Assembly (NCBI RefSeq): GCF_039904985.1
Contig: NZ_CP157005.1
Location: 4,235,501-4,299,500, forward strand
Source of the DNA: Methylomonas sp. AM2-LC
GTDB lineage: Bacteria; Pseudomonadota; Gammaproteobacteria; Methylococcales; Methylomonadaceae
DNA length: 64,000 nucleotides
Direction: 5' to 3'
Every line of letters starts with the position of its first letter. The stretch's first letter is position 1. The translations under genes were made by a program, and so were the position numbers. Under the pieces are notes generated by a model that saw only the letters and a list, made by a program, of their open reading frames with translations, searched no databases and was not told the origin of the DNA. Shown here piece by piece: positions 20,258-59,470 of the stretch.

Positions 20258-23200
20258 ATGATTAAAAACGCCCAGAAAAACAACACTGCACTCACACTTT
20301 ACGATGCCAATCTATCTCAGGACAGCTGCGGTGTTGGATTTATTACACGTAAAGATAGCAAACAAACCCACGAACTACTGACTATATCCCACGAGGCGCT
20401 CTGTACTATTCCGCATCGCGGCGGCATGAGTGCAGAAGGCATTGGCGATGGCGCGGGGGTCAACATTGATCTGTCTTTGACTTTTTTCCGCAAGGTGACG
20501 GGCGATCCCTCCCTAGAGTTAGGTCAGTTTGGCGTTGCCAATTTCTTTTTCCCTGAAAACCACGCTCATTATGACTCAGTAGCTGCACAACTGGTAGAAG
20601 AACAATTTAAAGCTTATGATTTACCCATTATCAAGTGGCGTGAAATTCCGGTAGATAATTCTGTTATCAATGCCGCCGCACTCAAAGCACAATTACCGAT
20701 AAAACAGGTTATTTTTGGTCGACCAACCGCTTTACAGCATGCCAGCCACGCTGAATTTGAAAAACATATCCAATCAGCTTTGCTGACGATTGAAGTATCA
20801 GGATTTACTCGTCCTGAACTGAATGGTTTTTATCCTTTGTCTATGAGTTCTCACACACAGGTTTACAAAGGCCGACTTAACTCTTTTGAAGTTATACCCT
20901 ATTTTGTTGATTTGTATGATAAAGATCACGAAATCAACACGCTGTTCTTTCACACGCGTTTTTCTACCAATACTGCGCCAGCAACTATTATGGCTCAGCC
21001 TTTTCGGTATATGGCGCATAATGGCGAATTAAATACCGACAAAAAAAACCGTCTGAGCGAAAACGCTATTGCCCGGCAAAACAATAAACATATAGTGTTT
21101 CCTTGCGGACAATCCGATTCTAGCCGATTGGACCAAACACTGACGCGTCGCATCAACGAAGACGGGCTAGACATCGTTACAGCCATTCTGGCCATGATGC
21201 CCCCTGCCTGGGAAAATGACTCGTCGTTATCCCCCGGTGTGCGAGCCATGCTGGAATACTTCAGTCTTTATGAAGAAAAAAATGATGGTCCAGCAGCGCT
21301 GATCTTTAACGATGGCATCCGTGTTGGCGCACGTCTTGATCGTCTTGGCTTGCGCCCCCTACGCTCTGTTGAAACCAAAGAATATCTGGCAGTAATGTCC
21401 GAAGCCGGACAAATTGATTTTCCAGCAGCAGAAGTATTACGTCGTGGGCGCATTGAAGCAGGCGGTATGCTTTATTTCGATCACAGCACAGGTGAGTCAT
21501 ACAATACTCGCCAAGTACTGGAGAATCTGGCAAAGGCAAAAGACTACCCAGCGTTGTTAGAGCAAAGCAGAATACATATTAACGATCTGCCAAAAGTTAG
21601 TTTGTCGGAAATTAATAATGTACACGAATTCAATTTCAACCAACGCCATACAGCTTATTCGCTGAATCAGGAAAGCTTTAAATTTCTTCTAGATCCTATT
21701 CTGCAAACAGGTTTAGAAAAAGTCTCGGCCATGGGATATGGACTCACGCCCAATGCATTAAGCGCGGCTGAAGGCGGCATGTTCCGCTATTTTAGCCAAC
21801 GCTTTGCACAAGTCACCAACCCGCCGCTGGATTCTTTACGTGAAAGCGATGGCATGACGCTAAGAGTCGCTTTGGGCGCAAAACCCACTTTCTCAACTGA
21901 AAACAGCAAACAGTTGATGATAGAAACCCCTATTTTGCAACGCACTCAATTAGAACAGATCCGGCGTCAAAATCAGGTGCGCAATATCACTTTAGACATG
22001 CTTTATACGCCAGACTTTGATTGTGCAATTAAAAACGAAAGCGCATTGGAAGAAGCGATCAATTCAGTATGCCTACAAGTCGAACAAGCAGCCAGAAATA
22101 ACATTGGTATTATTATATTGAGTGACTTCAATATTAATACGCACAAAGCAGCTATTCCAGCACTATTAATGGTAGCTGCAGCAAACCAACATCTGGTTAA
22201 ACTTGGCTTGCGTTTTAATTCTTCGCTGATTTTAGAAACAGGACAAGCTGTAAGCCCTCACGATGTAGCGACCATACTAGGATTTGGTGCTTCCGCACTC
22301 TGCTCTCTTAGCGTGCACAATCGGGTAATGAGCGAGTATAGTGATAGTGAAGCTCAACAAAAAGCTTTGTATAATTTTCAAAAAGGCATTGAAAAATCCT
22401 TAATGAAAACCATGGGAAAATTTGGCTTATGTACAGTGGAAAGCTACATAGGCGGTGAGTTCTTTGAATCCAATTATTTAGATACTGACGAACCAAAATT
22501 AAAACCCTATTTTCCCAATATTCATGCTTCTGTTGGTGGCGCAGGTTATAGTGATATCGCAGCTAGCGCTATGGAATGGCATCATAAAGCCAAAAGCGTT
22601 AAAGACGAAAACGACATTCCTTTTCTAGGTCTGTTTAAAGAACGTCAGGAAGGCGCAGGTCACACGTTTGGCAATACCGCAGTTCGGGAATATATTAATA
22701 TGACCGACGAAGCCATTCTATATATACCACAACCTCAAGCTCATACCGCCAGCGACACCGCCTATCTGGATTTTGGCTATGAAAAACGCACACCCAAACA
22801 GATAGATGCGTTTGGCATTACCCCTGCCTACCGCAATTTTACCCGTAATTTGTCTCTGGAACGCGCTAAACGTCCAGCAGCATTACGGGATGTAATGGAA
22901 TTTCCAATTGATATTTCTGCCGCTAAAACACAGGCAGAATTTGATCGTTTACTGGGCAGCCAGAACTTGAGAGGTAATCTCAATTTCGTCATTCGAGGCC
23001 TGATTGTAAAGCAAACGCGTGATCTACACTTCAGCATCACCTTTAGTGACAATATCAGCAATGCGCGCTTACAAAATCTTGCCGCACATTTAACAACGCG
23101 TTTCACTGATGACGACTATACGCTTAGCATTAGCGAGCAAAGCATTAACTTACAAAGCAATAATACAGATAGCTTAATATACAACTACCTGTCGGCTATC

Positions 23201-25741
23201 CGTAGCGCTCGGCCACGACTGGCTCTTCAAGAAGTACAGGCCGCACACAAAATTACACCAACATTTGCTTCAGGTGCTATGAGCCACGGCGCATTGTTAG
23301 CCGAAGCGCATGAAGCGGTCGCACAAGGCACCAATATTGCTGGCTGCATGAGTAACTCGGGTGAAGGTGGCGAACACTCCAGCCGTTTTAACACCTTACG
23401 TTCCAGCAAAATTAAACAGTTTGCATCAGGTCGTTTTGGTGTATGGGCAGGCTATCTTGCCGATCCCAATCTGGAAGAAATCGAGATTAAAATTGGTCAA
23501 GGTGCTAAACCTGGAGAAGGCGGCCAACTTCCAGCACCCAAAGTGTCCGTAGAAATTGCCGCCTTGCGCGGTGGCACACCCAAAGTAGAGCTGGTAAGCC
23601 CTCCACCTCATCACGACACCTATTCTATTGAAGATCTTGGCCAGCTTATTCACGACGCAAAAGCCGCTAGAGTGCGCGTTGTGGTAAAACTGGTGTCCTC
23701 GGAAGGAATAGGTACCATTGCTGTTGGTGTGGCCAAAGCAGGAGCTGATGTCATTAACGTAGCCGGAAATAGCGGCGGTACAGGTGCAGCAGCTGTTACC
23801 AGCCTAAAAAATACAGGTCGCTCACCGGAAATTGGTATCGCCGAAGTACATCAAGCCTTATCCGTCAATGGTTTACGCGAAAAAGTCATTTTGCGTTGCA
23901 GCGCAGCCCATCAGAATGGTGCGGACGTCGTTAAATCGGCCATTCTAGGTGGTGATTCTTTCGAGTTTGGCACTACAGCATTAATGATGTTGCGATGTGT
24001 GATGGCAAAAAACTGCAATATTCGCTGCCCTGCGGGATTAACGACTGCACATGAGGAATTTAAAGGAGATCCTCGTGTTTTAGCGCAATATTTCATGAAT
24101 CTTGCTCACGAAGTACGTGAAATATTGGCCGATTTGGGTTATACCAGTCTTCAGGAAATTCGAGGAAAAACCGAGTTATTGCATTTGGTCACACATGACA
24201 GCATGGTCGGTCAGATTTATTTACAAAAATTATTGGCAGAAGTAAAAGAAACTAAAATCGATAAGCCTATTTATTTGGAAAAAGATTTTAGCATTGACGA
24301 TTTAATTTTTGCACAAGTTAAAGCTCAACTATTTGAAAATAAAAAAACTCAAGTAGTGATCGAAGGCAAACAGTTCAAATTAAATAATCGCAACAAAACA
24401 GTGGGCGGACAAACCGCTATCGATTTGGAGCGTTTGTTAGCTTATGAACTTAACGCTGATCAAGTTGAATCCTTACCCTTTATCTATACCAACCAACTTG
24501 GTCGCCGTTATCTGACAGACGACACCATTATTGTGCGCACTCACGGCTCAGCGGGTCAAAGCTATGCAGCTTTCAACAATGATGGCATGCGCATGGAACA
24601 TACAGGCACCTGTAATGACGGGGTTGGTAAAACCGCTTGTGGTGGTATTATCGTGATTAAATCACCGGGAGGCGGCTCTAATTTGCCCGGAGAAAATGTA
24701 TTAATCGGTAACTTTGCCTTATTTGGCGCATCCGGAGGTAAAGTATTTATCAATGGCGAAGCGGGTGACCGATTTGCTGTACGTAACTCTGGAGCAATGG
24801 CTGTTGTAGAAGGTGTCGGTGACTTCGGCTGCGAATACATGATCAATGGCGCTGTATTAAATTTAGGTGGCTTTGGAAAAGGCTTCTGCACGGGAATGTC
24901 TGGCGGTAATGCCTACCAGTATGATCCAGATAACCGACTGCAAGATTTGTGTGATAACACTTCTGTCAGCATTCATAAATTGACCGATGATCACCCAGCC
25001 GCATACAGCCATGAGCAATTTATACTGTATATGCTGGAACAACACATTGAGGCAACACGCTCCGAAAAAGCTAGTTTCCTTCTAAAAAACTGGGCCGAAC
25101 AACGGCAGTATTTTAAATTTGCCCTGCCTTTATGGCTAAACAGAACCCAAACTGCCGAGTTTCTAAGCAAAGCGATGGATCGTAAGTCCATGATTGAGGA
25201 GCTTAGCGTGGCATTTGCTCAAAACCAGATAGCTGAAATTAAACACGCCTACCAATCCCAATCAGCTCTATTTTCTGGAGCTATACCCGGATATGGCGAA
25301 ACAGACACTGAACTGACTTTAAAGTTAATCAATAGTTATGCGGTGATCGACAAGGCACAGCAAATCGCTAAAGATCAACTTAGCAAAGCAGGGCAAACGC
25401 TTAGCCCCGGCTTAATCGATTCTCATGCCTACAAGCTTATTATGGAGCGTCCACGCAAATTACAGGATGCATTGATTAAAAACATCAGGGAAGCATATAG
25501 CCAGTATGAGGATAGCCAACTGGCCGCACTAATGGCTGAAAAAAGACTTAACGACTACAAAACAACACTAAAACTACGCGATGTACAAAGTATTTATTCA
25601 ATAGGCTCTACTGCTTGGATTATTGAGCAAGATACTATTAATCGTGCCGCTTTAAACGGCGTAGCATCGGTACAAAAAAATCTTGCTAGTCTGGAAAGTT
25701 TAGCAATTGTTACCGAGATGTTAGTGAGCGAGTCAACTTAA
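20258..25741 (+). CDS. gltB: Long-form glutamate synthase (GOGAT) large subunit
   Basis: An 1827-residue protein, some 300-350 longer than typical GltB. Residue C24 in DSCGVGF is the amidotransferase nucleophile after a 23-residue propeptide. The class II glutaminase domain is followed by a central domain, an FMN/2-oxoglutarate synthase domain (SGAMSHGALLAEAHEA, GAKPGEGGQLP) and a GXGXG beta-helix (GGxGKGFCTGMSGG near 1545). The Fe-S cysteines are C1247, C1253 and C1257, spaced C-x5-C-x3-C, whereas classical GltB has C-x5-C-x4-C. A C-terminal helical extension of about 250 residues follows the GXGXG domain. It makes two glutamate from glutamine and 2-oxoglutarate. No gltD follows; a diflavin reductase gene does. 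A sigma-70 promoter and a terminator bracket it as one unit. Confidence 0.92.
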   Translation: MIKNAQKNNTALTLYDANLSQDSCGVGFITRKDSKQTHELLTISHEALCTIPHRGGMSAEGIGDGAGVNIDLSLTFFRKVTGDPSLELGQFGVANFFFPENHAHYDSVAAQLVEEQFKAYDLPIIKWREIPVDNSVINAAALKAQLPIKQVIFGRPTALQHASHAEFEKHIQSALLTIEVSGFTRPELNGFYPLSMSSHTQVYKGRLNSFEVIPYFVDLYDKDHEINTLFFHTRFSTNTAPATIMAQPFRYMAHNGELNTDKKNRLSENAIARQNNKHIVFPCGQSDSSRLDQTLTRRINEDGLDIVTAILAMMPPAWENDSSLSPGVRAMLEYFSLYEEKNDGPAALIFNDGIRVGARLDRLGLRPLRSVETKEYLAVMSEAGQIDFPAAEVLRRGRIEAGGMLYFDHSTGESYNTRQVLENLAKAKDYPALLEQSRIHINDLPKVSLSEINNVHEFNFNQRHTAYSLNQESFKFLLDPILQTGLEKVSAMGYGLTPNALSAAEGGMFRYFSQRFAQVTNPPLDSLRESDGMTLRVALGAKPTFSTENSKQLMIETPILQRTQLEQIRRQNQVRNITLDMLYTPDFDCAIKNESALEEAINSVCLQVEQAARNNIGIIILSDFNINTHKAAIPALLMVAAANQHLVKLGLRFNSSLILETGQAVSPHDVATILGFGASALCSLSVHNRVMSEYSDSEAQQKALYNFQKGIEKSLMKTMGKFGLCTVESYIGGEFFESNYLDTDEPKLKPYFPNIHASVGGAGYSDIAASAMEWHHKAKSVKDENDIPFLGLFKERQEGAGHTFGNTAVREYINMTDEAILYIPQPQAHTASDTAYLDFGYEKRTPKQIDAFGITPAYRNFTRNLSLERAKRPAALRDVMEFPIDISAAKTQAEFDRLLGSQNLRGNLNFVIRGLIVKQTRDLHFSITFSDNISNARLQNLAAHLTTRFTDDDYTLSISEQSINLQSNNTDSLIYNYLSAIRSARPRLALQEVQAAHKITPTFASGAMSHGALLAEAHEAVAQGTNIAGCMSNSGEGGEHSSRFNTLRSSKIKQFASGRFGVWAGYLADPNLEEIEIKIGQGAKPGEGGQLPAPKVSVEIAALRGGTPKVELVSPPPHHDTYSIEDLGQLIHDAKAARVRVVVKLVSSEGIGTIAVGVAKAGADVINVAGNSGGTGAAAVTSLKNTGRSPEIGIAEVHQALSVNGLREKVILRCSAAHQNGADVVKSAILGGDSFEFGTTALMMLRCVMAKNCNIRCPAGLTTAHEEFKGDPRVLAQYFMNLAHEVREILADLGYTSLQEIRGKTELLHLVTHDSMVGQIYLQKLLAEVKETKIDKPIYLEKDFSIDDLIFAQVKAQLFENKKTQVVIEGKQFKLNNRNKTVGGQTAIDLERLLAYELNADQVESLPFIYTNQLGRRYLTDDTIIVRTHGSAGQSYAAFNNDGMRMEHTGTCNDGVGKTACGGIIVIKSPGGGSNLPGENVLIGNFALFGASGGKVFINGEAGDRFAVRNSGAMAVVEGVGDFGCEYMINGAVLNLGGFGKGFCTGMSGGNAYQYDPDNRLQDLCDNTSVSIHKLTDDHPAAYSHEQFILYMLEQHIEATRSEKASFLLKNWAEQRQYFKFALPLWLNRTQTAEFLSKAMDRKSMIEELSVAFAQNQIAEIKHAYQSQSALFSGAIPGYGETDTELTLKLINSYAVIDKAQQIAKDQLSKAGQTLSPGLIDSHAYKLIMERPRKLQDALIKNIREAYSQYEDSQLAALMAEKRLNDYKTTLKLRDVQSIYSIGSTAWIIEQDTINRAALNGVASVQKNLASLESLAIVTEMLVSEST

Positions 25742-46393: not shown

Positions 46394-47824
46394 TCACCGT
46401 ATAAAATCCGGCAATTTGCCATTAAAGAGCAGTGTCAACGCTTCGCTGGCTGATATGTTGTTTTTCCGGCATGTTGATAAATAACTTCGAACACGGCAAA
46501 AAATATCAGCACCTTCCTGACTACGAAAACAGCCTGAAATCTTTTGGTGAACCTTGGTCATTCTGATGTCGTTCTCTCCTTGGTTATTGGTAAAGGGTAC
46601 CTTGGCATCAGTCATAAACCTTAAGGTTTGCTGCTCAAAGTTGATTAACCGCTCCAATAAGTTTCGCGATTTACTGCGTTTAAGTCGTCCCCGTTGTCCT
46701 TCCTTTCTCTCTGGGAGCGGGGGAGGACATTCCTGCTCAGCCTCTTTAAGAATTGCCCGATATTGATCGGTATAGCCTGCCGCTATAGAATCGGATAAAA
46801 CACCGCCCTGGGCCTTAACAGCCTCATTGATAGAAACAAGCAACTCTCGCATATCCTTAGCCCATGCTTGGTTCTCTTGTTCTTCGGCATAGGTCAGCTC
46901 GCGCAAATGGTGAGCGTTACATAAGGCATGCAGGCAGTTCAACTGGAAATAGGGCTTCCAGTGATCGTGGCAGAGAATACCTGTAAAACGGGTTAAAACA
47001 TTCATAGCGGTTATTGCTTCCATGCCGCGTTTGGCGTGGGCGTAAAAGAGCGTCCATTGCTGGTTCGAAATACAGTGCAGCCAATGATTTTTCCCATTGA
47101 TGTTGATCCCGGTCTCATCGGAATGCAATAGGGACGAGGCGAGTATTTTCGTGATGAGTTTCAATTCAAATTGTTCGAGCAAATGATAAGCTTGCTGGTT
47201 AAATTCAAAGATTGAGCCGACACTGATCGGTAGTTGGAATTGATCCTGAAATTGCTCTTGAACACGTTGGTAGGGAATGAGTTGATATTGAGACAAATAC
47301 ACGGCCTGTGCTTTGACGCCATTCCCGTATTGCACCGCTTTAGTGACTTCAACCGGAAAAGAGGCTGTAAAACGTTTGCCAAATTGATCTTCCAGAACTT
47401 GAGCGCGGTATTCGGTCACAAGGCGCTGAATCTCAATATCAAATACTTGGCGGATCTCAAAACCAACTTCCTGATAGTTCCCTGGTGGTAAAGTCGCCCG
47501 ATCTAATTCCAGAATTTCAATTTCATCGGGATCGTCCACTTTTTTTAAAGTTGTACCTATCCGACCGAACTGCCCACCGCGCTTTCTATTTTTGCCTTTG
47601 TTCTCGTCATCGCCACTGACTTTGTCTTGATCTTTAAAACGATCCGTAGAAGGCGGTTTGCTGCTATTTCGGCTAGTCAGGCTTAAACGATTAGCCATTA
47701 TTTGAATCAGCATGATCATGACTTCTAAGGTCGCACGCAAAGCTGATGACATATGCTCTTCATCAGCGATCAGTTGCTGAACTTTTTTGATGGTGTCTTC
47801 AATGTTGATATTATCGACAGTCAA
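46394..47824 (-). CDS. tnpC: IS66-family transposase
   Basis: 476 residues, apparently intact. N-terminal leucine-rich helix, then SSKPPSTDRFK, typical of IS66 transposases; the DDE residues are in HSDETGIN, CHDHWKPYF and NNQGENDIRM. The frame begins with TTG at 47824; the first internal ATG is at codon 25 and would lose part of the helix. A strong hairpin stands just upstream (47831-47860). The C-terminal end lies 28 bases from the membrane-gene stop. Confidence 0.95.
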   Translation of the reverse strand: MTVDNINIEDTIKKVQQLIADEEHMSSALRATLEVMIMLIQIMANRLSLTSRNSSKPPSTDRFKDQDKVSGDDENKGKNRKRGGQFGRIGTTLKKVDDPDEIEILELDRATLPPGNYQEVGFEIRQVFDIEIQRLVTEYRAQVLEDQFGKRFTASFPVEVTKAVQYGNGVKAQAVYLSQYQLIPYQRVQEQFQDQFQLPISVGSIFEFNQQAYHLLEQFELKLITKILASSLLHSDETGININGKNHWLHCISNQQWTLFYAHAKRGMEAITAMNVLTRFTGILCHDHWKPYFQLNCLHALCNAHHLRELTYAEEQENQAWAKDMRELLVSINEAVKAQGGVLSDSIAAGYTDQYRAILKEAEQECPPPLPERKEGQRGRLKRSKSRNLLERLINFEQQTLRFMTDAKVPFTNNQGENDIRMTKVHQKISGCFRSQEGADIFCRVRSYLSTCRKNNISASEALTLLFNGKLPDFIR

Positions 47825-48227: not shown

Positions 48228-50396
48228 TTAAGCCTCAGTTCCCTGTAAACGGGTAATCCATGCATCTCTGGCGTATGGATCAACATGATACGCCAGTGCG
48301 GCAGGTTTATGTAGCAAGCCTTCTTCACCGGAGGCATTGGGGTTTAACTGTCGCTTTTCGACAAAATCTATCATACGCCGAGTGTTGTATATCAACAGCA
48401 CTCGATTAATTTCACCACCTCGATATATTTGATAGCCGACATTATCTTCATTGAAAGCAGGATTACGCATTAGCCACACCTCAATAGCGGCTGCATCCTG
48501 AATAGATAGCTGTTTTAAAACCGAATCGTGGCGATTTCTACACACATCATGTAGATAGTCAGCCAAAACCCGCTGCCGTTGCCTATCTTGTAATTCCATT
48601 ACTTCGCTATCGGTAAATAAAAAACTTTCTGCCACCAAATAATGCTTATCTTTATCTCCGTCATTAGCAAACAAACAAATTTTCTGAAGGGCATCATCTC
48701 TTAGCGCATTCAAAAAAGAACGTGGAGCTCGGATATGCTTATCGATTGTTACCACCCACGGCAACGCCCGCCCAGTAGTTTCATAACGCGCTTTAACACT
48801 CTCAATTACACAGGAACGAGACAACTCCTCCTCACGCCCCAGAGGTTTTACCAAAAAAGCATCCACAGCGATGATTGAAGTATAAAAATCTGCCTCATTA
48901 AATTGTTTAACAATCGTGGCATAACGCGGCTGATAAGGGATGCCGGTACCATCGTACAAAATATTGACACCGATTTCTCTGGCATGCTGTGCCACCAAAT
49001 CTCGTAAGCGGTTGGCGAACGGTTCTATGTAAACATAATCATCACTATGATGATTAGCAGCCGTCATTACCCGGTACAAATCACTGAGTTTTCGAAATTC
49101 ATCCAACGAGGCAGTGACAAAGTTATCCCCGCAACAGGCCTTGGCCATTTCTTCGACCGCCGTTTTGCCTGAACCCGCTCCACCCATAGCCATAAACAAT
49201 CTTGGTTGTGAAACAGGTGTTTTATCGGCAAAAATAGTTTGTACCGCATCCGACAAAATACGATTAATTTTATTCAACCGTTCATAAGCAATCTCCACAG
49301 TGCGAGCCAAGCGGATTTCATCATCAGCAAAGCTTAGCATTCTATTTTTTAAACTTTCATTGGCAGCCAGACTGAATAAATTAGCTTGTTCGCCAGCGCA
49401 TTGGCGAAGTAAATCCAGTAATTCGGCATGACTGGGAGGACGTAAGCCAGTCAAGATGTTTACATCGAGACCAAACAAGGGCGCCACTCCATCCGCTCGA
49501 ATGGGTATGGCATCAATGCTGGTTTTTTCGGGAACACGCAAATCTTCTGTACCTGGCAAATAACCCACGACTACTTCTGAAGCGCTTAGTGGATTATCTG
49601 CAAAATGCTGACCTGCTATAAAATCCTGCACATTGATACTATTCAATGCCACCAAACCTCCATTCACAGTGACTAGACACTGAGTACCATCGGCCATAGT
49701 GTGGGACAAAAACGGAATACCTAACAAAAACCGTTTATTTTCCAGCCATTTGCCATAACTGTTAGCGATATTTTGCAAGCATTTAGTTCGGGTAGGATCA
49801 AGAGCATGCTTAAAAGCCGCTGCAATCTGTCGGTGCGGGCTGTTAATATCGTGTAATGCTCGGGCATCGTTTGAAGTTAGGCGTCTAAAATCAATGCCTG
49901 GCTCGTACACTGCTTTAAATGCTGGCAAATTACCCAAGGCCGTAATAAAGAAATCCAAAGCCAAACGATTTCCATAGCTAAAAGGACGAATACTTCGCAT
50001 GGCTCGATAGAAACCGGCTAAGCGTTCAGCGATGTCTTCACAGCGTATGACAAAGCCATTATTATCAAAAATAGCAGTATCCTGATTATTTTCATCGTCT
50101 AAAACCAGTCGTTCTATGGTCTCTCGAAATTGTTTACGCTTTTCGGCATCCAGCATACTGCCAGGCCTGTGATTGACGGTAATCTGGTCTTTCCAATCGC
50201 TATACATTTCGCGATGTATACGCGTGAATAATGCAGTTAAATAAGTAACTCGCTTGGTTTGATCATGGGATACCGTACTTTGCTGTTCTTGTGTAAGCGT
50301 GGCAATTAAACGCGTACCTTGCAATATAGCTAATACCGTCCGCAATTTTTTTAACGTTTTATAGCCAGAAATGATGGCGTTATTTTGCTGAATCAT
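48228..50396 (-). CDS. Fic-like/zeta-toxin-type kinase fusion protein
   Basis: 722 residues. The C-terminal half has a zeta-toxin/P-loop kinase core: Walker A GGAGSGKT (405-412), the Asp of ASLDEFR (D432), and YDGTGI (481-486), which corresponds to the EGTGR segment of zeta toxins. In the N-terminal part, residues 122-155 read FYRAMRSIRPFSYGNRLAL in the middle, resembling the Fic loop HPFxxGNGRxxR between two helices, but the catalytic His is Arg and the second Gly-Arg is changed, so AMP transfer is doubtful. Zeta toxins phosphorylate UDP-N-acetylglucosamine. AAGGA precedes the ATG well. No epsilon-type antitoxin gene adjoins, no signal peptide is visible, and both neighbours are unrelated. 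It could be a self-controlled toxin or a secreted effector; both are inference. Confidence 0.72.
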   Translation of the reverse strand: MIQQNNAIISGYKTLKKLRTVLAILQGTRLIATLTQEQQSTVSHDQTKRVTYLTALFTRIHREMYSDWKDQITVNHRPGSMLDAEKRKQFRETIERLVLDDENNQDTAIFDNNGFVIRCEDIAERLAGFYRAMRSIRPFSYGNRLALDFFITALGNLPAFKAVYEPGIDFRRLTSNDARALHDINSPHRQIAAAFKHALDPTRTKCLQNIANSYGKWLENKRFLLGIPFLSHTMADGTQCLVTVNGGLVALNSINVQDFIAGQHFADNPLSASEVVVGYLPGTEDLRVPEKTSIDAIPIRADGVAPLFGLDVNILTGLRPPSHAELLDLLRQCAGEQANLFSLAANESLKNRMLSFADDEIRLARTVEIAYERLNKINRILSDAVQTIFADKTPVSQPRLFMAMGGAGSGKTAVEEMAKACCGDNFVTASLDEFRKLSDLYRVMTAANHHSDDYVYIEPFANRLRDLVAQHAREIGVNILYDGTGIPYQPRYATIVKQFNEADFYTSIIAVDAFLVKPLGREEELSRSCVIESVKARYETTGRALPWVVTIDKHIRAPRSFLNALRDDALQKICLFANDGDKDKHYLVAESFLFTDSEVMELQDRQRQRVLADYLHDVCRNRHDSVLKQLSIQDAAAIEVWLMRNPAFNEDNVGYQIYRGGEINRVLLIYNTRRMIDFVEKRQLNPNASGEEGLLHKPAALAYHVDPYARDAWITRLQGTEA

Positions 50397-52529: not shown

Positions 52530-54179
52530 CTAGGCAAACAAATTTAACAGGCCATTGCCAGCATGCGCAGAACCTATTTCCGATGTTTCTACTTTATCAA
52601 CTGCTGATGAATTAGTCGAATTTTCTGTCTCATTTTGTGAACCAGTATTATTACCTTTACCTTGATCGCTTGCCATCTGGAAAAAACTCTGCGCAGGTTT
52701 CTGATCTGATTGTTGTTGAGAAACATTTACGTCAACCAAGTTCAATTGCTCACCCCCTAGCATTTCTCTTAATTTAGGGATAGAGGCTTCGATCGCCTCT
52801 TTAACTTGCTGATGTTGAGTGGTAAATGAAATAGTGGTTTGATCCTGTTGATCAAGCCCAATTTTGATAGAGATTGGACCTAAGTGAGGAGGGTTAATTT
52901 GTAATTCGGCTGTAGAAATGTCTTGTTTGTGCATCAATTGCAGCTTATCTGCTAATTCTGCATTCCAGTTTGGGTGATTCAAAGGTAAAGCTATGCCTGA
53001 CATGCTATTCACATGTGTTGTATTGGCTACCGACTGGTGAGGCTGTATTAGATTAATCGGCATATTGTCTGTCGCGTTAGCAGCCTGCTGACTTTTATTT
53101 TGCGTAGTAAAAGATTGCGTTAAACTCGTCAATTCACTATCCGCATCCACTTGAGTAACCCCAGTGCTATTACTGATTTCGGTTAATGTATTTACCGTTG
53201 CAGAGTTGCTGGTATTTGGGTCGGTGGTTAATGATGAATTTTCTGCAACTGGAGTTGAAACCGTCTGAACAATATTACTCAACGGAGTATCTGTTTGAGT
53301 CGATTTTTTATTAGACACAGCCTGATTTGCAGAAAATACAATGCTGCCAGACATACCTGACAGCATACTACTGACGGAAGAAGGCAACGGCACATCAGAA
53401 ATTGCTTGTGCTTTGGCAGCGGTTTGAGTGAGCGCTGCTTGTTGAGTGGCAGCTGAGACTGCCGCAGCTAATCGATTATCATTTTGCGTAATCGACTTTG
53501 TTGACGAATTTACTGCTTGATTAATTGCAAATTGCTGATCGTCTCCAGTTGTATTATCAGTCGATACAGAATTGACTGTTGAGTTCGGCACCGTTAACTG
53601 TAGTTGTTGAATTTGTTGCCCGGTAATCGCTAAAGCTTGTGCTAATGCATTAGGATCAGTCTGATCACTCAAAAGCGATTTTTTATTAGTCGCAGAACCA
53701 CTAGTACTGCTATTTGTTGTCGTTAAAGACGGTATTTCGACACTTGTATTCTGCGTGATTGCTGACTGATTTAAAAGTGTATTGGTCTGTGCAGACTGAA
53801 GCGGGTTAACTCCATCAGTTTTCAAACTTTGCAAATACTGCAACACATCCGTTAAGGCGCTGAGCGTATTATCAAGATTAATACTTTGATCAGTTTTATT
53901 TGCCAGCGGCGTGGATTTTCCGAATAAAGCGGCAAAACTTTGCAAGTCCTGCTCGATAGTACTTAAATCAGTCGTTGTATTATTTGCCTGGAAATTACTT
54001 AATAACGTGTTATCAGTGACGGCATTCTTACCTGCATTACCTTGTAACAAACTTAACTGTTCAAGCAAATTGGCAGTAAAAGCGGCGGTATTACTGAGAT
54101 CTATACCGACGTTGGTTGATTGGGTTACGCTATTATCTATACCTGTTACAAGGGATACTGGATTGGTTGTTTGAATCAT
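52530..54179 (-). CDS. fliK: Flagellar hook-length control protein
   Basis: 549 residues from ATG 54179; a GTG one codon earlier is less likely given GGGAGA upstream. Most of the protein (about 1-400) is low-complexity, rich in Thr, Ser, Asn and Gln and expected to be flexible, as in FliK molecular rulers. The C-terminal Flg_hook domain is clear: AELQINPPHLGPISIKIGLD and REMLGGEQLNLVDVNV. It sets hook length and switches the export apparatus to filament proteins. Confidence 0.92.
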   Translation of the reverse strand: MIQTTNPVSLVTGIDNSVTQSTNVGIDLSNTAAFTANLLEQLSLLQGNAGKNAVTDNTLLSNFQANNTTTDLSTIEQDLQSFAALFGKSTPLANKTDQSINLDNTLSALTDVLQYLQSLKTDGVNPLQSAQTNTLLNQSAITQNTSVEIPSLTTTNSSTSGSATNKKSLLSDQTDPNALAQALAITGQQIQQLQLTVPNSTVNSVSTDNTTGDDQQFAINQAVNSSTKSITQNDNRLAAAVSAATQQAALTQTAAKAQAISDVPLPSSVSSMLSGMSGSIVFSANQAVSNKKSTQTDTPLSNIVQTVSTPVAENSSLTTDPNTSNSATVNTLTEISNSTGVTQVDADSELTSLTQSFTTQNKSQQAANATDNMPINLIQPHQSVANTTHVNSMSGIALPLNHPNWNAELADKLQLMHKQDISTAELQINPPHLGPISIKIGLDQQDQTTISFTTQHQQVKEAIEASIPKLREMLGGEQLNLVDVNVSQQQSDQKPAQSFFQMASDQGKGNNTGSQNETENSTNSSAVDKVETSEIGSAHAGNGLLNLFA

Positions 54180-54220
54180 CACGACATTCTCCCGAAAAAC
54201 TTTATCTTTATTTAAGCAGT

Positions 54221-54667
54221 TTATATGCCATCTTTTCTTTGCGTGCGGGTAGCTCTTGCATCCATTTCAATTTGTTCTCGTCGATTTTCAGCTTTTAATT
54301 CTTCCGCTTTAGCTTGTGCACTGATTTTTTCCATACTTTGGGTACGATGATGACTTTCTTCCCAATTTTTTCGCGCCCTATGCAAATCTTGTTCATAGTT
54401 TGCTAATAAAGTTTGTTGACCGGCAATGGCTTTATCTAACTTATCAGCGAAAGCTCTCAACTCTTGAAACTGCATAATAGTCAAACCCGCGGCTTGTTGT
54501 TGCGCCAACCCCGCCCGATTTTCCAATCGATATTTTTGCAATTGCTCTAACTGAGTTTGTTGCTCTGTTAATTTCTGTTGGGTACGTCCTAAAAACTGTA
54601 ATGCATCGTGTTCCTGACGCGAATACAAATCAATAATAACCTTAAGCCGTTCTGATCTTTTGCTCAT
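54221..54667 (-). CDS. fliJ: Flagellar export chaperone FliJ
   Basis: 148 residues, almost entirely coiled coil with heptads of Leu and many Gln, Lys and Glu; LKVIIDLYSRQEHDALQFLG at the start matches FliJ. It works with the FliI ATPase in flagellar export. Its start overlaps the fliI stop by 4 bases. Confidence 0.9.
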   Translation of the reverse strand: MSKRSERLKVIIDLYSRQEHDALQFLGRTQQKLTEQQTQLEQLQKYRLENRAGLAQQQAAGLTIMQFQELRAFADKLDKAIAGQQTLLANYEQDLHRARKNWEESHHRTQSMEKISAQAKAEELKAENRREQIEMDARATRTQRKDGI

Positions 54668-56013
54668 TGTACGGCAAGCAAGCTTGTCAAATCGTTTAGG
54701 CTTCGGCTCATATCAACAGATTCGTCCATATCTTGCTGTAGAAATGTCAAGATTGACTGATTTTTTTCAATCGCCCTATCAATACGTGGATCGGCTCCAG
54801 CTCGATACGCGCCTACGCTGATTAAATCTCTGTTTTGTTGATAGGTGGAATACAATCGGCGTAACTCTCTGGCTAATTGCAGGTGTTCGGAATCAACAAT
54901 ATCCGGCATTACCCTACTAATTGAGGCTTCAACATCGATAGCAGGAAAATGGCCGGATTCAGCCAGACTTCTAGACAAGACAATATGTCCATCCAATACA
55001 CCACGAGCGGCATCAGCAACAGGATCGTTAGGATCATCGCCTTCTGTCAATACCGTATAAAACGCGGTAATTGAACCACCACCATGATCGCCATTGCCAG
55101 CACGCTCCACCAATTGCGGCAATTTTGCAAATACCGAAGGCGGATAACCTTTTGTGGCAGGAGGTTCATCAATTGCCAACGCAATTTCCCGACTCGCCTG
55201 AGCGTAACGGGTCAATGAGTCAACTAACAATAAAACATCCAGGCCTTGATCTCGAAAATATTCAGCAATACTGGTTGCTCGCAATGCCCCATGCACACGC
55301 ATTAATGGCGAATCATCAGCTGGCGATGCAACAACCACCGCCCGTCTTAAACCTTCTTCACCTAGAATTTTCAAAACGAATTCATTGACCTCACGACCCC
55401 GTTCACCAATCAGCCCCACCACAACAACATCGGCATTAGTAAATTTGGTCATCATCCCCAACAATACACTTTTGCCCACGCCAGTGCCGGCAAACAACCC
55501 CATTCGTTGACCACGACCAACACTAAACAAGGCATTGATTACTCTAACACCAACATCCAATGCCTCTCGAATGGGTTTACGAGCCAAAGGATTGATGGGA
55601 ACGCCCGTTAACGAGACTTTCGCATTGGTATCTAGCGGCCCCTTGCTATCCAGCGGATTACCAGCACCATCTATAACGCGCCCCAACAAACCAAAACCAA
55701 CGCTGCTTAGACTATTTTTTCCTAACGGGATAACTCGACAACCCGGCTCCAGCCCGTGTGTATCTCCAGTAGGCATTAAATACAAACGCGTACCAGAAAA
55801 ACCAACCACTTCTGCACCTATCTGCTTTCCACTTTTGGTTTCAACCTTACATAATGAACCGATAGCAGCTCGACAGCCTTCCGCTTCCAAAGTTAAACCG
55901 ACCATACGCGACAATTTACCTTCAACGACTAGCTCTGGACTATCTTGTATTTTTTGCCGATAGGGTTTTAATCGCTCTAACCAAATTTCAGCGCGTTGTG
56001 CCTGCGGTATCAT
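54664..56013 (-). CDS. fliI: Flagellum-specific ATPase FliI
   Basis: 449 residues. Walker A is in GLFAGTGVGKSVLLG, then VGLIGERGREVNEF, Walker B in VLLLVDSLTRYAQASREIALA, and GYPPSVFAKLPQLVERAGN; all F1-beta-like motifs are intact. It energises early substrate delivery in the flagellar type III export apparatus. It overlaps both fliH and fliJ by 4 bases. Confidence 0.97.
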   Translation of the reverse strand: MIPQAQRAEIWLERLKPYRQKIQDSPELVVEGKLSRMVGLTLEAEGCRAAIGSLCKVETKSGKQIGAEVVGFSGTRLYLMPTGDTHGLEPGCRVIPLGKNSLSSVGFGLLGRVIDGAGNPLDSKGPLDTNAKVSLTGVPINPLARKPIREALDVGVRVINALFSVGRGQRMGLFAGTGVGKSVLLGMMTKFTNADVVVVGLIGERGREVNEFVLKILGEEGLRRAVVVASPADDSPLMRVHGALRATSIAEYFRDQGLDVLLLVDSLTRYAQASREIALAIDEPPATKGYPPSVFAKLPQLVERAGNGDHGGGSITAFYTVLTEGDDPNDPVADAARGVLDGHIVLSRSLAESGHFPAIDVEASISRVMPDIVDSEHLQLARELRRLYSTYQQNRDLISVGAYRAGADPRIDRAIEKNQSILTFLQQDMDESVDMSRSLNDLTSLLAVQ

Positions 56014-56738
56014 GACGCAACATCCTGCTGACGCTCACCACCTAAAACATTTGCCACGACAGCAGAAAGCCGATTTTCCAGACTAGCATCAATATAGGAA
56101 GTGTCTGTTTCTATGGTGCAACCACCCCGTGTAAGCAATGGATTTTCAAGCAAACGCCATTGAGGCATACTGTCATCTAAATTCAAAGCAGCTCTAACTA
56201 ACTCGGCATCCTCTGGATGCAAGTTCAACGTAATTTTCTGAGCGGACAAGGGCAAAACTTTTATTGCCTCTCTGATCACCGCAACTATTTGACCAGGATC
56301 AAGCTTGATTTCGCGCCGAATAATTTGACTAGCAATCGCTATGGTCAATTTCACAAGCTCCTTTTCTACAGCAGCATCTAATTCTCGAAATGGCTCACTC
56401 AAAGACTCCATCAACAGCACTAATTCTGCCGCCTGTTTTTGTAACAGATGCTCACTTTCCAGGTATCCCTGTTTTCTACCCGATTCCAAGCCTTGCTTTT
56501 CTCCTTCTGCAAAACCTTCTGTCCTACCCTGCTCAAACCCCTCCTGCCGTCCCTGCTGAAAGGCTTCATCGTAAGCCTGCTTTTGCATAGCTTCAATTTC
56601 TTCTACTGTGAGGGTACGAGGAGCTTCGCTGGGCTCTATTGGCTCGGAGCGATGCCCACCCAATTCTTGCAAGGTTGTCCAAGTATGCAGGCTAAGTAGC
56701 TCAGCCTCAGTAAAATTGGCCGTTTTAGACGAACTCAT
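56010..56738 (-). CDS. fliH: Flagellar assembly protein FliH
   Basis: 242 residues from ATG 56738 (MSSSKTANFTEAEL); GTG codons up to 56747 are also in frame. The middle is a striking run of G-x3-G-type repeats, for example GRQEGFEQGRTEGFAEGEKQ, known in FliH as helix-packing motif. The C-terminal part (LTIAIASQIIRREIKLDP) is the FliI-binding domain. It regulates the FliI ATPase. It overlaps fliG by 14 bases and fliI by 4. Confidence 0.93.
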   Translation of the reverse strand: MSSSKTANFTEAELLSLHTWTTLQELGGHRSEPIEPSEAPRTLTVEEIEAMQKQAYDEAFQQGRQEGFEQGRTEGFAEGEKQGLESGRKQGYLESEHLLQKQAAELVLLMESLSEPFRELDAAVEKELVKLTIAIASQIIRREIKLDPGQIVAVIREAIKVLPLSAQKITLNLHPEDAELVRAALNLDDSMPQWRLLENPLLTRGGCTIETDTSYIDASLENRLSAVVANVLGGERQQDVAS

Positions 56739-57732
56739 CACCACCACCGCCCGCCAAGGCTATTTCACCGGCATCTGACAAGCGTTTGGCAATGGCCAGA
56801 ATATCTTTTTGTGCGGCTTCTACTTCGCTTAAGCGGGTGGGAGGAGCTGCCTCTAGATCATCACGCAACATTTCAGCTGCTCTTCTCGACATATTGGCAA
56901 ATATTTTGTCACGCAATAGAGTGTCAACACCACGTAAAGCTAATAATAATTGATCAGTGGAAACCTCACGTAACAGCGTTTGGATACCACGATCATCGAC
57001 CTTAACCAAATCACCGAACACAAACATTTTATCCTGAATACGCTGACTCAAATCGGCATTTTGTTCCGAAATATCCAGCATCATAGGATCACTAACTGCG
57101 CTTTCGATAAAGTTAAGAATATTTGCAGCTGCATCAATACCTCCAAGTTGTGAGGATTTAACACCTTCACTACCTGTCAGCTGTTTCTCCATAATATCGT
57201 CTAATTCGCGCAACGCAGCTGGTTGTACACCTTCCAGAGTAGCAATTCGCATTAAAATATCAGCGCGCATATTTTCCGGTAGTAAGGTCAAAATATCGGC
57301 AGACTGATCCGCATCCAGCAAGGACAAAATAATCGATATAATCTGCGGATGCTCCAGACGAATCAAATCGGCAATCGAGCGGGTATCCATCCATTTAAGT
57401 TGCTCGATACCTTTACTATTGGCACCTAACAATATACGATCAATAATACTACCCGCTTTATCTGCTCCCAAGGCGTTGGTGAGCATGTTACGAATATACT
57501 CATCTGAATCCAGCCCCAAACCAGTTTCATTTTTGATTTCAATGATGAACTCTTCCAGAACCTCGTCAACCAACTGTGAGGTGATAGGACCCAGTTGCGC
57601 CATTGTAGATCCCACCAACTGTACTTCTTTTGGCCCCATATGCCTCAATACCGTGGATGCACGATCTTGCCCTACCGCTAACAACAGTAAGGATGCTCGC
57701 TGTGCTTTACTGAATTCTTTTTCTTCAGCCAT
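56725..57732 (-). CDS. fliG: Flagellar motor switch protein FliG
   Basis: 335 residues. KAQRASLLLLAVGQDRASTVLRHM is the FliG N-domain; LKWMDTRSIADLIRLEHPQIISIILS and the EHPQ motif mark the middle domain; the C-domain has the torque residues in MFVFGDLVKVDDRGIQTLLREV. It forms the rotor ring with FliM/FliN. It overlaps fliF by 8 bases. Confidence 0.97.
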   Translation of the reverse strand: MAEEKEFSKAQRASLLLLAVGQDRASTVLRHMGPKEVQLVGSTMAQLGPITSQLVDEVLEEFIIEIKNETGLGLDSDEYIRNMLTNALGADKAGSIIDRILLGANSKGIEQLKWMDTRSIADLIRLEHPQIISIILSLLDADQSADILTLLPENMRADILMRIATLEGVQPAALRELDDIMEKQLTGSEGVKSSQLGGIDAAANILNFIESAVSDPMMLDISEQNADLSQRIQDKMFVFGDLVKVDDRGIQTLLREVSTDQLLLALRGVDTLLRDKIFANMSRRAAEMLRDDLEAAPPTRLSEVEAAQKDILAIAKRLSDAGEIALAGGGGDEFV

Positions 57733-59470
57733 CGTCTTTCAACCAAACTTTTATCACTTGAGCCACCAGTTTTGGATCTTCATCAATGAGTTTTTGCACA
57801 TATTCTAGGCGTTTTTCGTAACTTTGCGGTGCTTCCAGCAATAACAGATCTTCCACACTAGAAGTAATACCCAACACTTCGCCAGTCTCTTCATCGACTT
57901 TCACTGCGATAGGTTTGCCTGTCTCATCAAAGCGTACCACACCCCCAATTTCTTCAGCTTGTTTCTGTGCTTCTTCTAGCGCTTTCAGTTTGGCTTCATT
58001 CTCATCTATACCAATCAATGTAGCAATAGCTGGACGTAGAACTTTAAAAATGAGTAATGCTGCAACCATTAATGCCACCAGCACTTTAATCAAATCCAAA
58101 AACCAAGCTTTCTGCCAAAATCCTTCGCTGGCTACTTCCATAAATTCAGGCACTTTGAAAGCGACATTGGACACTGTCACCTGATCACCACGACTACTAT
58201 CGTATCCCACTGCCTGTTTAACCAATTCTCGTAATTGATTCAGTTCTTCCGGTGAATAGCTCAACTGTACCGTTTTACCATCCAGACTGCTTTTTTTATC
58301 ATCAACCACCACCGCTACCGATAGACGCCGTAGGGCACCCGTCGCTAAACGGGTATGAGTAATGGTTTTATCCAATTCAAAATTACGTGTAGCATTTTTA
58401 CTCACCATACCGTTACTGGCATTGGTTTGTTTTTCCTGTCCACTGGCTACTTCAGGTGCAACACCAGTCGGTGGAGGTTGATTAGACAAGGCGCCTGGAA
58501 CTCCTTGTACTTTGTTGATATTACTGTTTTCTTCTTGTGTTTGTTCGCTACGCAATGCGGGTAAATCCGGATTAAACATCTCCTGCGTTTTTTCGGTAAC
58601 GGTAAAATCCACATCAGCCGAAATTTGCGCACTCATTCCATCATTACCCACTAAGGGGGCCAGAATATTTTCTATTCGTCTACGCAAATGCTCTTCTATA
58701 TCTTTTTTGTATTCGAACTGTTTAGAGGATTGCGCCATATCCTCTGAAGATTCTTTGCTATTTAATAGTCGACCTTTCTGATCAACGACTGTTACCTGTC
58801 CTGCTTCCATCATAGGTACACTGGAAGCAACCAAATGCACAATAGATTCAATTTGTTCTTTTTCCAGAGCCCTACCCTGGTAAAGTTCCACTATAACAGA
58901 TGCACTGGGTTTTTTATGCTCTCGTACGAATACCGATTGAACAGGTAAAGCTAATAATACTTTCGCCGACTTAACGTTTTGAATGGTTTGAATGGTCAGT
59001 GCAATTTCACCTTCTAATGCACGTTGATAGCGTATATTTTCTACGCTCTTACTGGCACCAAAACCATTATCTTTGTCCAAAATTTCGTAACCCAAGCTAG
59101 AGGTACGTGGCAAGCCTTGTGCAGCCAATTTCAACTTTATATCGCGCCCGTTACCGGAGGGAACCATGATAGCCCCAGTGGCAGAGTCTATTTTGTATTT
59201 AACATTCAATTTATCCAGTGCTTCCAGAATTTCCGTAGCGTCTTTTTCGGCAACACCGGCATATAGCAAATCATAACTAGGTGCTTGTGCCCACAACACT
59301 ACCGCCACACCAATAGCCACACTCACCGCCAACGCTAACATCAACCCCATCTGCCGTGTCATTGAAAGACTTAAAAACTTTCTGACAGCAGGATGTAGCA
59401 TAGTATTGGCGGTTGCCACCTCTGTTTGCGGAGTGGCTTCCAGCGGGAAATTTTTGTCTAGTTCGCTCAT
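57725..59470 (-). CDS. fliF: Flagellar MS-ring protein FliF
   Basis: 581 residues. Two membrane helices (about residues 40-62 and 455-478) bracket the periplasmic ring-building region: YDLLYAGVAEKDATEILEALD, and ARVLLALPVQSVFVREHKKPSASV-type secretin-like segment (seen here as SAKVLLALPVQSVFVREHKK). The cytoplasmic C-terminus EKRLEYVQKLIDEDPKLVAQVIKVWLKDD binds FliG. It is the first structure of the basal body to assemble. Confidence 0.97.
   Translation of the reverse strand: MSELDKNFPLEATPQTEVATANTMLHPAVRKFLSLSMTRQMGLMLALAVSVAIGVAVVLWAQAPSYDLLYAGVAEKDATEILEALDKLNVKYKIDSATGAIMVPSGNGRDIKLKLAAQGLPRTSSLGYEILDKDNGFGASKSVENIRYQRALEGEIALTIQTIQNVKSAKVLLALPVQSVFVREHKKPSASVIVELYQGRALEKEQIESIVHLVASSVPMMEAGQVTVVDQKGRLLNSKESSEDMAQSSKQFEYKKDIEEHLRRRIENILAPLVGNDGMSAQISADVDFTVTEKTQEMFNPDLPALRSEQTQEENSNINKVQGVPGALSNQPPPTGVAPEVASGQEKQTNASNGMVSKNATRNFELDKTITHTRLATGALRRLSVAVVVDDKKSSLDGKTVQLSYSPEELNQLRELVKQAVGYDSSRGDQVTVSNVAFKVPEFMEVASEGFWQKAWFLDLIKVLVALMVAALLIFKVLRPAIATLIGIDENEAKLKALEEAQKQAEEIGGVVRFDETGKPIAVKVDEETGEVLGITSSVEDLLLLEAPQSYEKRLEYVQKLIDEDPKLVAQVIKVWLKDDG

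Follow-up and report, generated by a model that had tools for sequence, protein, structure and literature searches.

A fusion of a Fic fold without catalytic residues to a zeta-type kinase in Methylococcales: a possible toxin-like kinase with its own regulator

Introduction

Large solitary zeta proteins are known, and most of them are uncharacterised according to the accessible parts of two reports (PMC4803016, PMC4826407). A close described case is EzeT of Escherichia coli, a solitary zeta kinase that is silenced by the N-terminal domain of the same chain (PMC4803016, PMC4826407): in the sections of the original report that were available, full-length EzeT is harmless, removal of its first 83 residues leaves a toxic kinase part, and supplying residues 1-82 in trans gives rescue (PMC4803016). 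On the side of the Fic proteins, the Fic domain of BepC, for which no activity was detected, can act as a binding module, as stated in the available part of PMC8401265. Here, we analyze a gene of Methylomonas sp. AM2-LC that joins both folds. It lies at 48228..50396 on the minus strand of a 64,000-nucleotide stretch of contig NZ_CP157005.1 (positions 4,235,501 to 4,299,500), termed the window in the following, and encodes 722 residues plus stop. The product of this pseudo-Fic/zeta-kinase fusion gene is predicted to be a toxin-like kinase that may have its own built-in regulator.

Like EzeT, the fusion protein has a C-terminal zeta-type kinase, an extra N-terminal part and no separate antitoxin gene, a likeness of described architecture. 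The regulator differs, being the first 82-83 residues in EzeT, as the accessible text describes it (PMC4803016), and here putatively a 205-residue Fic fold together with a middle region. From the Epsilon/zeta and PezAT systems (PF06414; 1gvn, 2p5t), the fusion differs by lacking a conserved partner, by variation at the position of zeta E100, by an HHSDD hallmark and by a C-terminal extension, and from the class I Fic toxins and Bartonella Bep Fics (EcFicT, VbhT, Bep8, BepC) by the missing catalytic His and Mg-binding acid, the missing conserved neighbor gene and the attachment to a kinase. AvrRxo1, a zeta-like effector kinase, is secreted by a plant pathogen and is not known to contain a Fic domain. 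Unlike the fusion protein, it was solved in complex with a separate protein, ORF2, as the titles of the structure entries indicate. Our literature search, which covered titles and abstract openings and had most subscription papers outside its reach, found neither a Fic-zeta fusion nor the fusion gene in methanotrophs among the papers listed, which for one topic were 20 of 105. The parts are already labeled in databases, where members appear as 'zeta toxin family protein' or 'fido' (among the best 120 of 661 matches), and it is the combination that is undescribed within the literature searched.

Results

The reading frame runs on the minus strand from 50396 to 48228 and begins with an ATG that is immediately preceded by AAGGA, and frame 1 of the plus strand over the same interval is riddled with stops. 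When the genome was searched with the protein, a single match was obtained, on the 4.97-Mb contig. The structure model of the protein reached a predicted local distance difference test score (pLDDT) of 85.5 and a predicted template modeling score (pTM) of 0.85; model numbering is Met-1 numbering minus one. A preliminary description, made from the letters alone, had named this open reading frame (ORF) and the motifs RPFSYGNR (residues 137-144), GGAGSGKT (405-412), D432 and YDGTGI (481-486); the frame is real, and all motifs lie at these residues. Given their conservation in 165 distinct relatives (identical sequences dropped), they are far beyond chance.

By computation, the N-terminal domain (residues 1-205; 49782..50396, minus strand, as for all parts of the gene) is a Fic fold without the catalytic His and the Mg-binding acid. 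The comparison with Fido folds that had been proposed earlier gave, for the N-terminal model, matches that were uniformly Fic, and the helix-loop-helix suggested around RPFSYGNR appears in the model as helices 121-135 and 142-154 (model numbering). The degenerate motif itself (49965..49988) replaces the catalytic HPFx(D/E)GN(G/K)R of Fic/Fido enzymes (PF02661), with Arg for His and Tyr for Asp/Glu. In the register with three Fic proteins of the same genome, Arg137 stands at the catalytic His and Tyr141 at the motif Asp, and the alignment with EcFicT gives an identical register. No His occurs at position 137 in any of the 165 relatives, in keeping with the loss of the catalytic His that had been suspected. 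The replacement is itself conserved: R137 is kept in 160 of 165 relatives (K in four, G in one), P138 in 162, F139 in 129 (Y in 36), Y141 in 159 (F in six), G142 and N143 in all 165, and R144 in 163. In FDNNGF (110-115), upstream of the motif, conservation reaches 90 per cent or more at every residue, and by its position this element probably corresponds to the target-docking flap of Fic proteins.

On the sequence level, the Fic relationship is hardly visible. The Pfam Fic profile did not match the window protein at E values up to 10 and matched two of 25 members (best E 0.0041), the match to EcFicT had an E value of 1.7 only, and hhalign against the three Fic proteins of the same genome was weak (probability 4.7 per cent), yet in register; the best Foldseek E value of the N-terminal model was 4.6e-03. 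Pfam, NCBIfam and PADLOC returned nothing convincing for the N-terminal half, as a signal-peptide model (E 0.11) and Csn2 (E 0.02) were judged to be chance matches. The genome holds four Pfam-Fic loci above the cut-off (G000 C1:1957561, 3203911, 4850919 and 1172000; L174-L177), three of which have canonical motifs (HPFSDGNGR, HPFIDGNKR and HPFPDGNGR).

Purifying selection is equally strong on the Fic-like and the zeta domain. The median ratio of nonsynonymous to synonymous substitution rates (dN/dS), calculated from 34 pairs of 85-97 per cent identity (31-34 per domain), was 0.047 for the Fic-like domain, 0.049 for the middle region, 0.047 for the zeta domain and 0.082 for the C-terminal part. 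Since the dead site is kept and the median dN/dS is low, the Fic-like domain is no remnant, which had been one of the earlier suggestions.

The C-terminal half contains a zeta-type P-loop kinase with preceding helices (residues 306-600; 48597..49481). The Zeta toxin profile PF06414 covers residues 391-578 with 56.8 bits (cut-off 22.3) and matches all 25 members, and in the proposed structure comparison the best fold match of this half of the model is a zeta toxin. This is a kinase with an invariant ATP-site Lys and catalytic Asp: zeta K46, D67 and E116 align with K411 of the Walker A motif GGAGSGKT (49161..49184), with D432 (49101..49103; the catalytic role of D67 is taken from the accessible part of PMC6356619) and with D482 of YDGTGI (48939..48956), and these three residues, the core that had been called intact, are present in 165 of 165 relatives. 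Zeta T118 aligns with T484 (162/165), and the four positions are identical in all 50 aligned proteins. In the zeta toxin of Streptococcus pyogenes, the available text reports that D67, E116, R158 and R171 are essential, that E100 and T128 are partly dispensable, and that the E100A variant is still toxic (PMC6356619). When homologues were checked for the zeta substrate pocket, the E116 position was found to be kept and the E100 position to vary: E100, which contacts UDP-N-acetylglucosamine (UNAG), aligns with D466, which is Asp in 40 of 50 proteins and otherwise G, H, S, Q or one further residue. Opposite zeta R120, all 50 proteins have Ile, and R521, R527, R537 and R543 are equally invariant, with zeta R158 and R171 lying beyond the reach of the alignment. 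The kinase site is preserved; the substrate pocket is less certain. The family hallmark HHSDD (residues 449-453; 49038..49052) is at least 99 per cent conserved, as is the extended HHSDDY (449-454; window 49035-49052), in which D452 alone has an identical counterpart in the zeta alignment; the motif is a possible substrate or metal site.

Between the two domains lies a middle region of several strands (residues 206-305; 49482..49781) with conserved PFLS and LVTVNGGL, to which structure matching assigned no fold, as Fic and zeta rows filled the match lists. The C-terminal extension (residues 601-722; 48231..48596) contains a conserved RQLNPNASG. The structures 6ep5, 5cgl and 8idv, which we take to be class III Fic proteins with a C-terminal inhibitory helix, aligned with more residues of the full model than of the N-terminal model (164 vs 146, 154 vs 137 and 158 vs 142, respectively), and the extra part ends at model residues 717, 716 and 717, the individual aligned residues not being displayed. 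In these three structures, the end of the alignment seems to fall in their own C-terminal inhibitory region, a weak lead that the tail of the fusion protein may return to the Fic domain. For the definition of class III we follow PMC8401265, as far as its accessible part gives it; the VIA structure lists used here are a re-ranking of Foldseek's own matches.

As had been noticed before, no antitoxin-like gene adjoins the fusion gene in the window, and no Epsilon/PezA-type antitoxin gene beside it is conserved among the loci compared. No neighbor within seven ORFs was common to more than six of 41 loci; gene order is not conserved, and genomic context therefore gives no function. In flanks of up to 900 bp, compared at 121 loci with some genomes represented twice, the largest sets of similar ORFs comprised 17 of 120 upstream and seven of 116 downstream; in L037, the sole one of the 17 with an identified upstream gene, this was the glycyl-tRNA synthetase alpha gene. 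With no small ORF conserved in the flanks, an epsilon-like antitoxin does not belong to the conserved surroundings of the gene, although one could be encoded elsewhere in the genome.

The gene was found in 124 of 201 genomes of the family and in 22 of 29 genera (103 of 160 good genomes), and it is present in an endosymbiont of Gigantopelta aegis (L123). It is absent from 77 of the 201, including G126 and G159 of the same genus, and is therefore not essential. An order-wide draw gave 18 carriers among 61 genomes, of which 12 of 15 belonged to the own family and the others to three families (3/14, 2/2 and 1/1), with none in four further families (0/14, 0/10, 0/3 and 0/2). Class-wide, three of 369 genomes matched, namely the genome itself, one of the same family and one with a zeta-only match at 26 per cent, and a phylum-wide profile search of 398 genomes recovered the own genome only. 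The search for relatives scored 7998 candidates sharing most words. In named genome contigs, relatives are encoded by 169 of 204 candidate stretches, and the 80 that were kept are labeled as methane oxidizers of the Methylococcales or as unspecific proteobacterial metagenome-assembled genomes (MAGs); no match came from plasmids or phages, and none of 100 candidate stretches of viral contigs encodes a relative. For alignments, 59 of 80 kept loci were used, with 91 rows kept in A2 and 45 in A3. In a tree of 50 proteins, seven of the eight genera represented by two or more rows were each recovered as a single clade (genus labels compiled by hand).

Searches with single domains, which reach only relatives sharing 5-residue words within the length range (7990 candidates were scored for the kinase), gave 45 close relatives of the Fic-like and 78 of the zeta domain. 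Of the 45, 20 extend beyond residue 215, reaching the middle region, and the other 25 have scattered end points before it; 75 of the 78 extend outside 335-610 and three stop inside. Judged by their extent, most of these matches seem to be evident pieces or fragments of the fusion, and P0128, P0129 and P0142, which stop at 202-211, could in principle be lone Fic-like domains. P0128 (211 residues, longest contig 18507) ends at 211 without the kinase half, be it by a contig edge, truncation or as a lone domain. The only hints of members outside Methylococcales are two divergent fragments of the fusion family, P0158 from a 'Pseudomonadota' MAG and P0210 from a 'Rickettsiales' MAG (55 per cent), which could be members elsewhere or products of mis-binning.

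Discussion

We favor, at slightly less than an even chance, a vertically inherited, single-chain and self-regulated kinase. The zeta domain would phosphorylate a small nucleotide-linked substrate (a UDP-sugar or a different nucleotide). It would be restrained in cis by the dead Fic domain, possibly aided by the C-terminal tail, until the Fic pocket, in which the GN of the anion-binding loop is kept, binds a ligand or partner. The protein would thus work like EzeT, in which an N-terminal domain silences the zeta kinase, with a different regulator, and the precedents of EzeT and of BepC as a binding module are the reason why we prefer a cis-gated kinase. The more specific proposal that in Methylococcales a Fic toxin, stripped of its chemistry, was turned into a ligand-gated cis-inhibitor of a zeta-type kinase, with the protein's own C-terminal tail near the site of the inhibitory helix of some Fic proteins, is tentative and rather doubtful. 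Several observations count against these ideas. P0158, a MAG fragment of 39 per cent identity and the most divergent of the members, has ENFAYGNS at the motif, which likewise contains no His and keeps F.YGN but lacks R137 and R144, so that a conserved ligand pocket is uncertain. The tail is modeled with only moderate confidence (pLDDT 64 in block 711-720) and without a helix, and since the rows of Bep1 and BepA, both outside class III, extend to model residue 712 as well, the tail lead lacks specificity. If the more specific proposal holds, one toxin fold has been recast to serve another as its built-in antidote and sensor. The fusion forms a defined family over several families of one methane-oxidizing order, with the pseudo-Fic domain conserved as strongly as the fused kinase, and thereby makes testable which role solitary zeta kinases have as stable chromosomal genes, and why a Fic domain persists after losing its chemistry.

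The pseudo-Fic domain could alternatively be an adaptor that captures a protein or a nucleotide and presents it to the kinase for possible modification. This is conceivable, without being what we expect: the putative docking flap FDNNGF is conserved throughout, as an adaptor would have it, and the neighborhood holds no conserved partner gene, although a partner could be encoded elsewhere. It is unlikely that the protein is a housekeeping metabolic kinase of the Methylococcales instead of a toxin, with a Fic domain that is merely structural or allosteric; the gene does follow the genera, has a low dN/dS, occurs in the Gigantopelta endosymbiont and varies at the UNAG-contact position, but more than a third of the family genomes do without it, and the best fold match of the kinase half is a zeta toxin.

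Export as an effector for competition via a secretion system, which the preliminary description had also considered, is very improbable. The type VI secretion system (T6SS) gene vipB is missing in 25 of 56 carriers, including G024, whose genome is 99 per cent complete and in one contig; a scan for hydropathy found no hydrophobic segment that stands out (highest 19-residue mean 1.36), and there is no conserved adjacent gene. The raw association of the gene with vipB, from presence lists compiled by hand, is positive (p 0.015, without correction for kinship). We give still less credit to an accidental likeness or a gene part in decay: the faint trace of the Fic domain in sequence methods and the Foldseek E value speak for these readings, but all structure matches of the domain are Fic, its motif aligns in exact register and selection is strong. 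As a separate observation, the Methylomonas genome has two vipB-type T6SS loci, at C1:1268455 and at C1:3842185-3842943, the second matched weakly and in two pieces.

Other features of the window

The large glutamate synthase subunit GltB, encoded at window 20258-25741 on the plus strand, is of an 1827-residue type. Other family genomes have a type of about 1530-1590 residues that is about 30-48 per cent alike, and sometimes both occur in one genome. Because of these two types, GltB proved a poor marker of vertical descent (30 hand-picked genomes, Spearman 0.44, p 0.015). Next to the fusion gene, a divergent CobQ-type gene lies 183 bp upstream, and an IS66-family transposase gene (window 46394-47824, minus strand) follows about 400 bp downstream of the stop. 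Window 52530-59470 on the minus strand is a flagellar cluster with fliK-, fliJ- and fliI-like genes, as assigned by eye from the translations.
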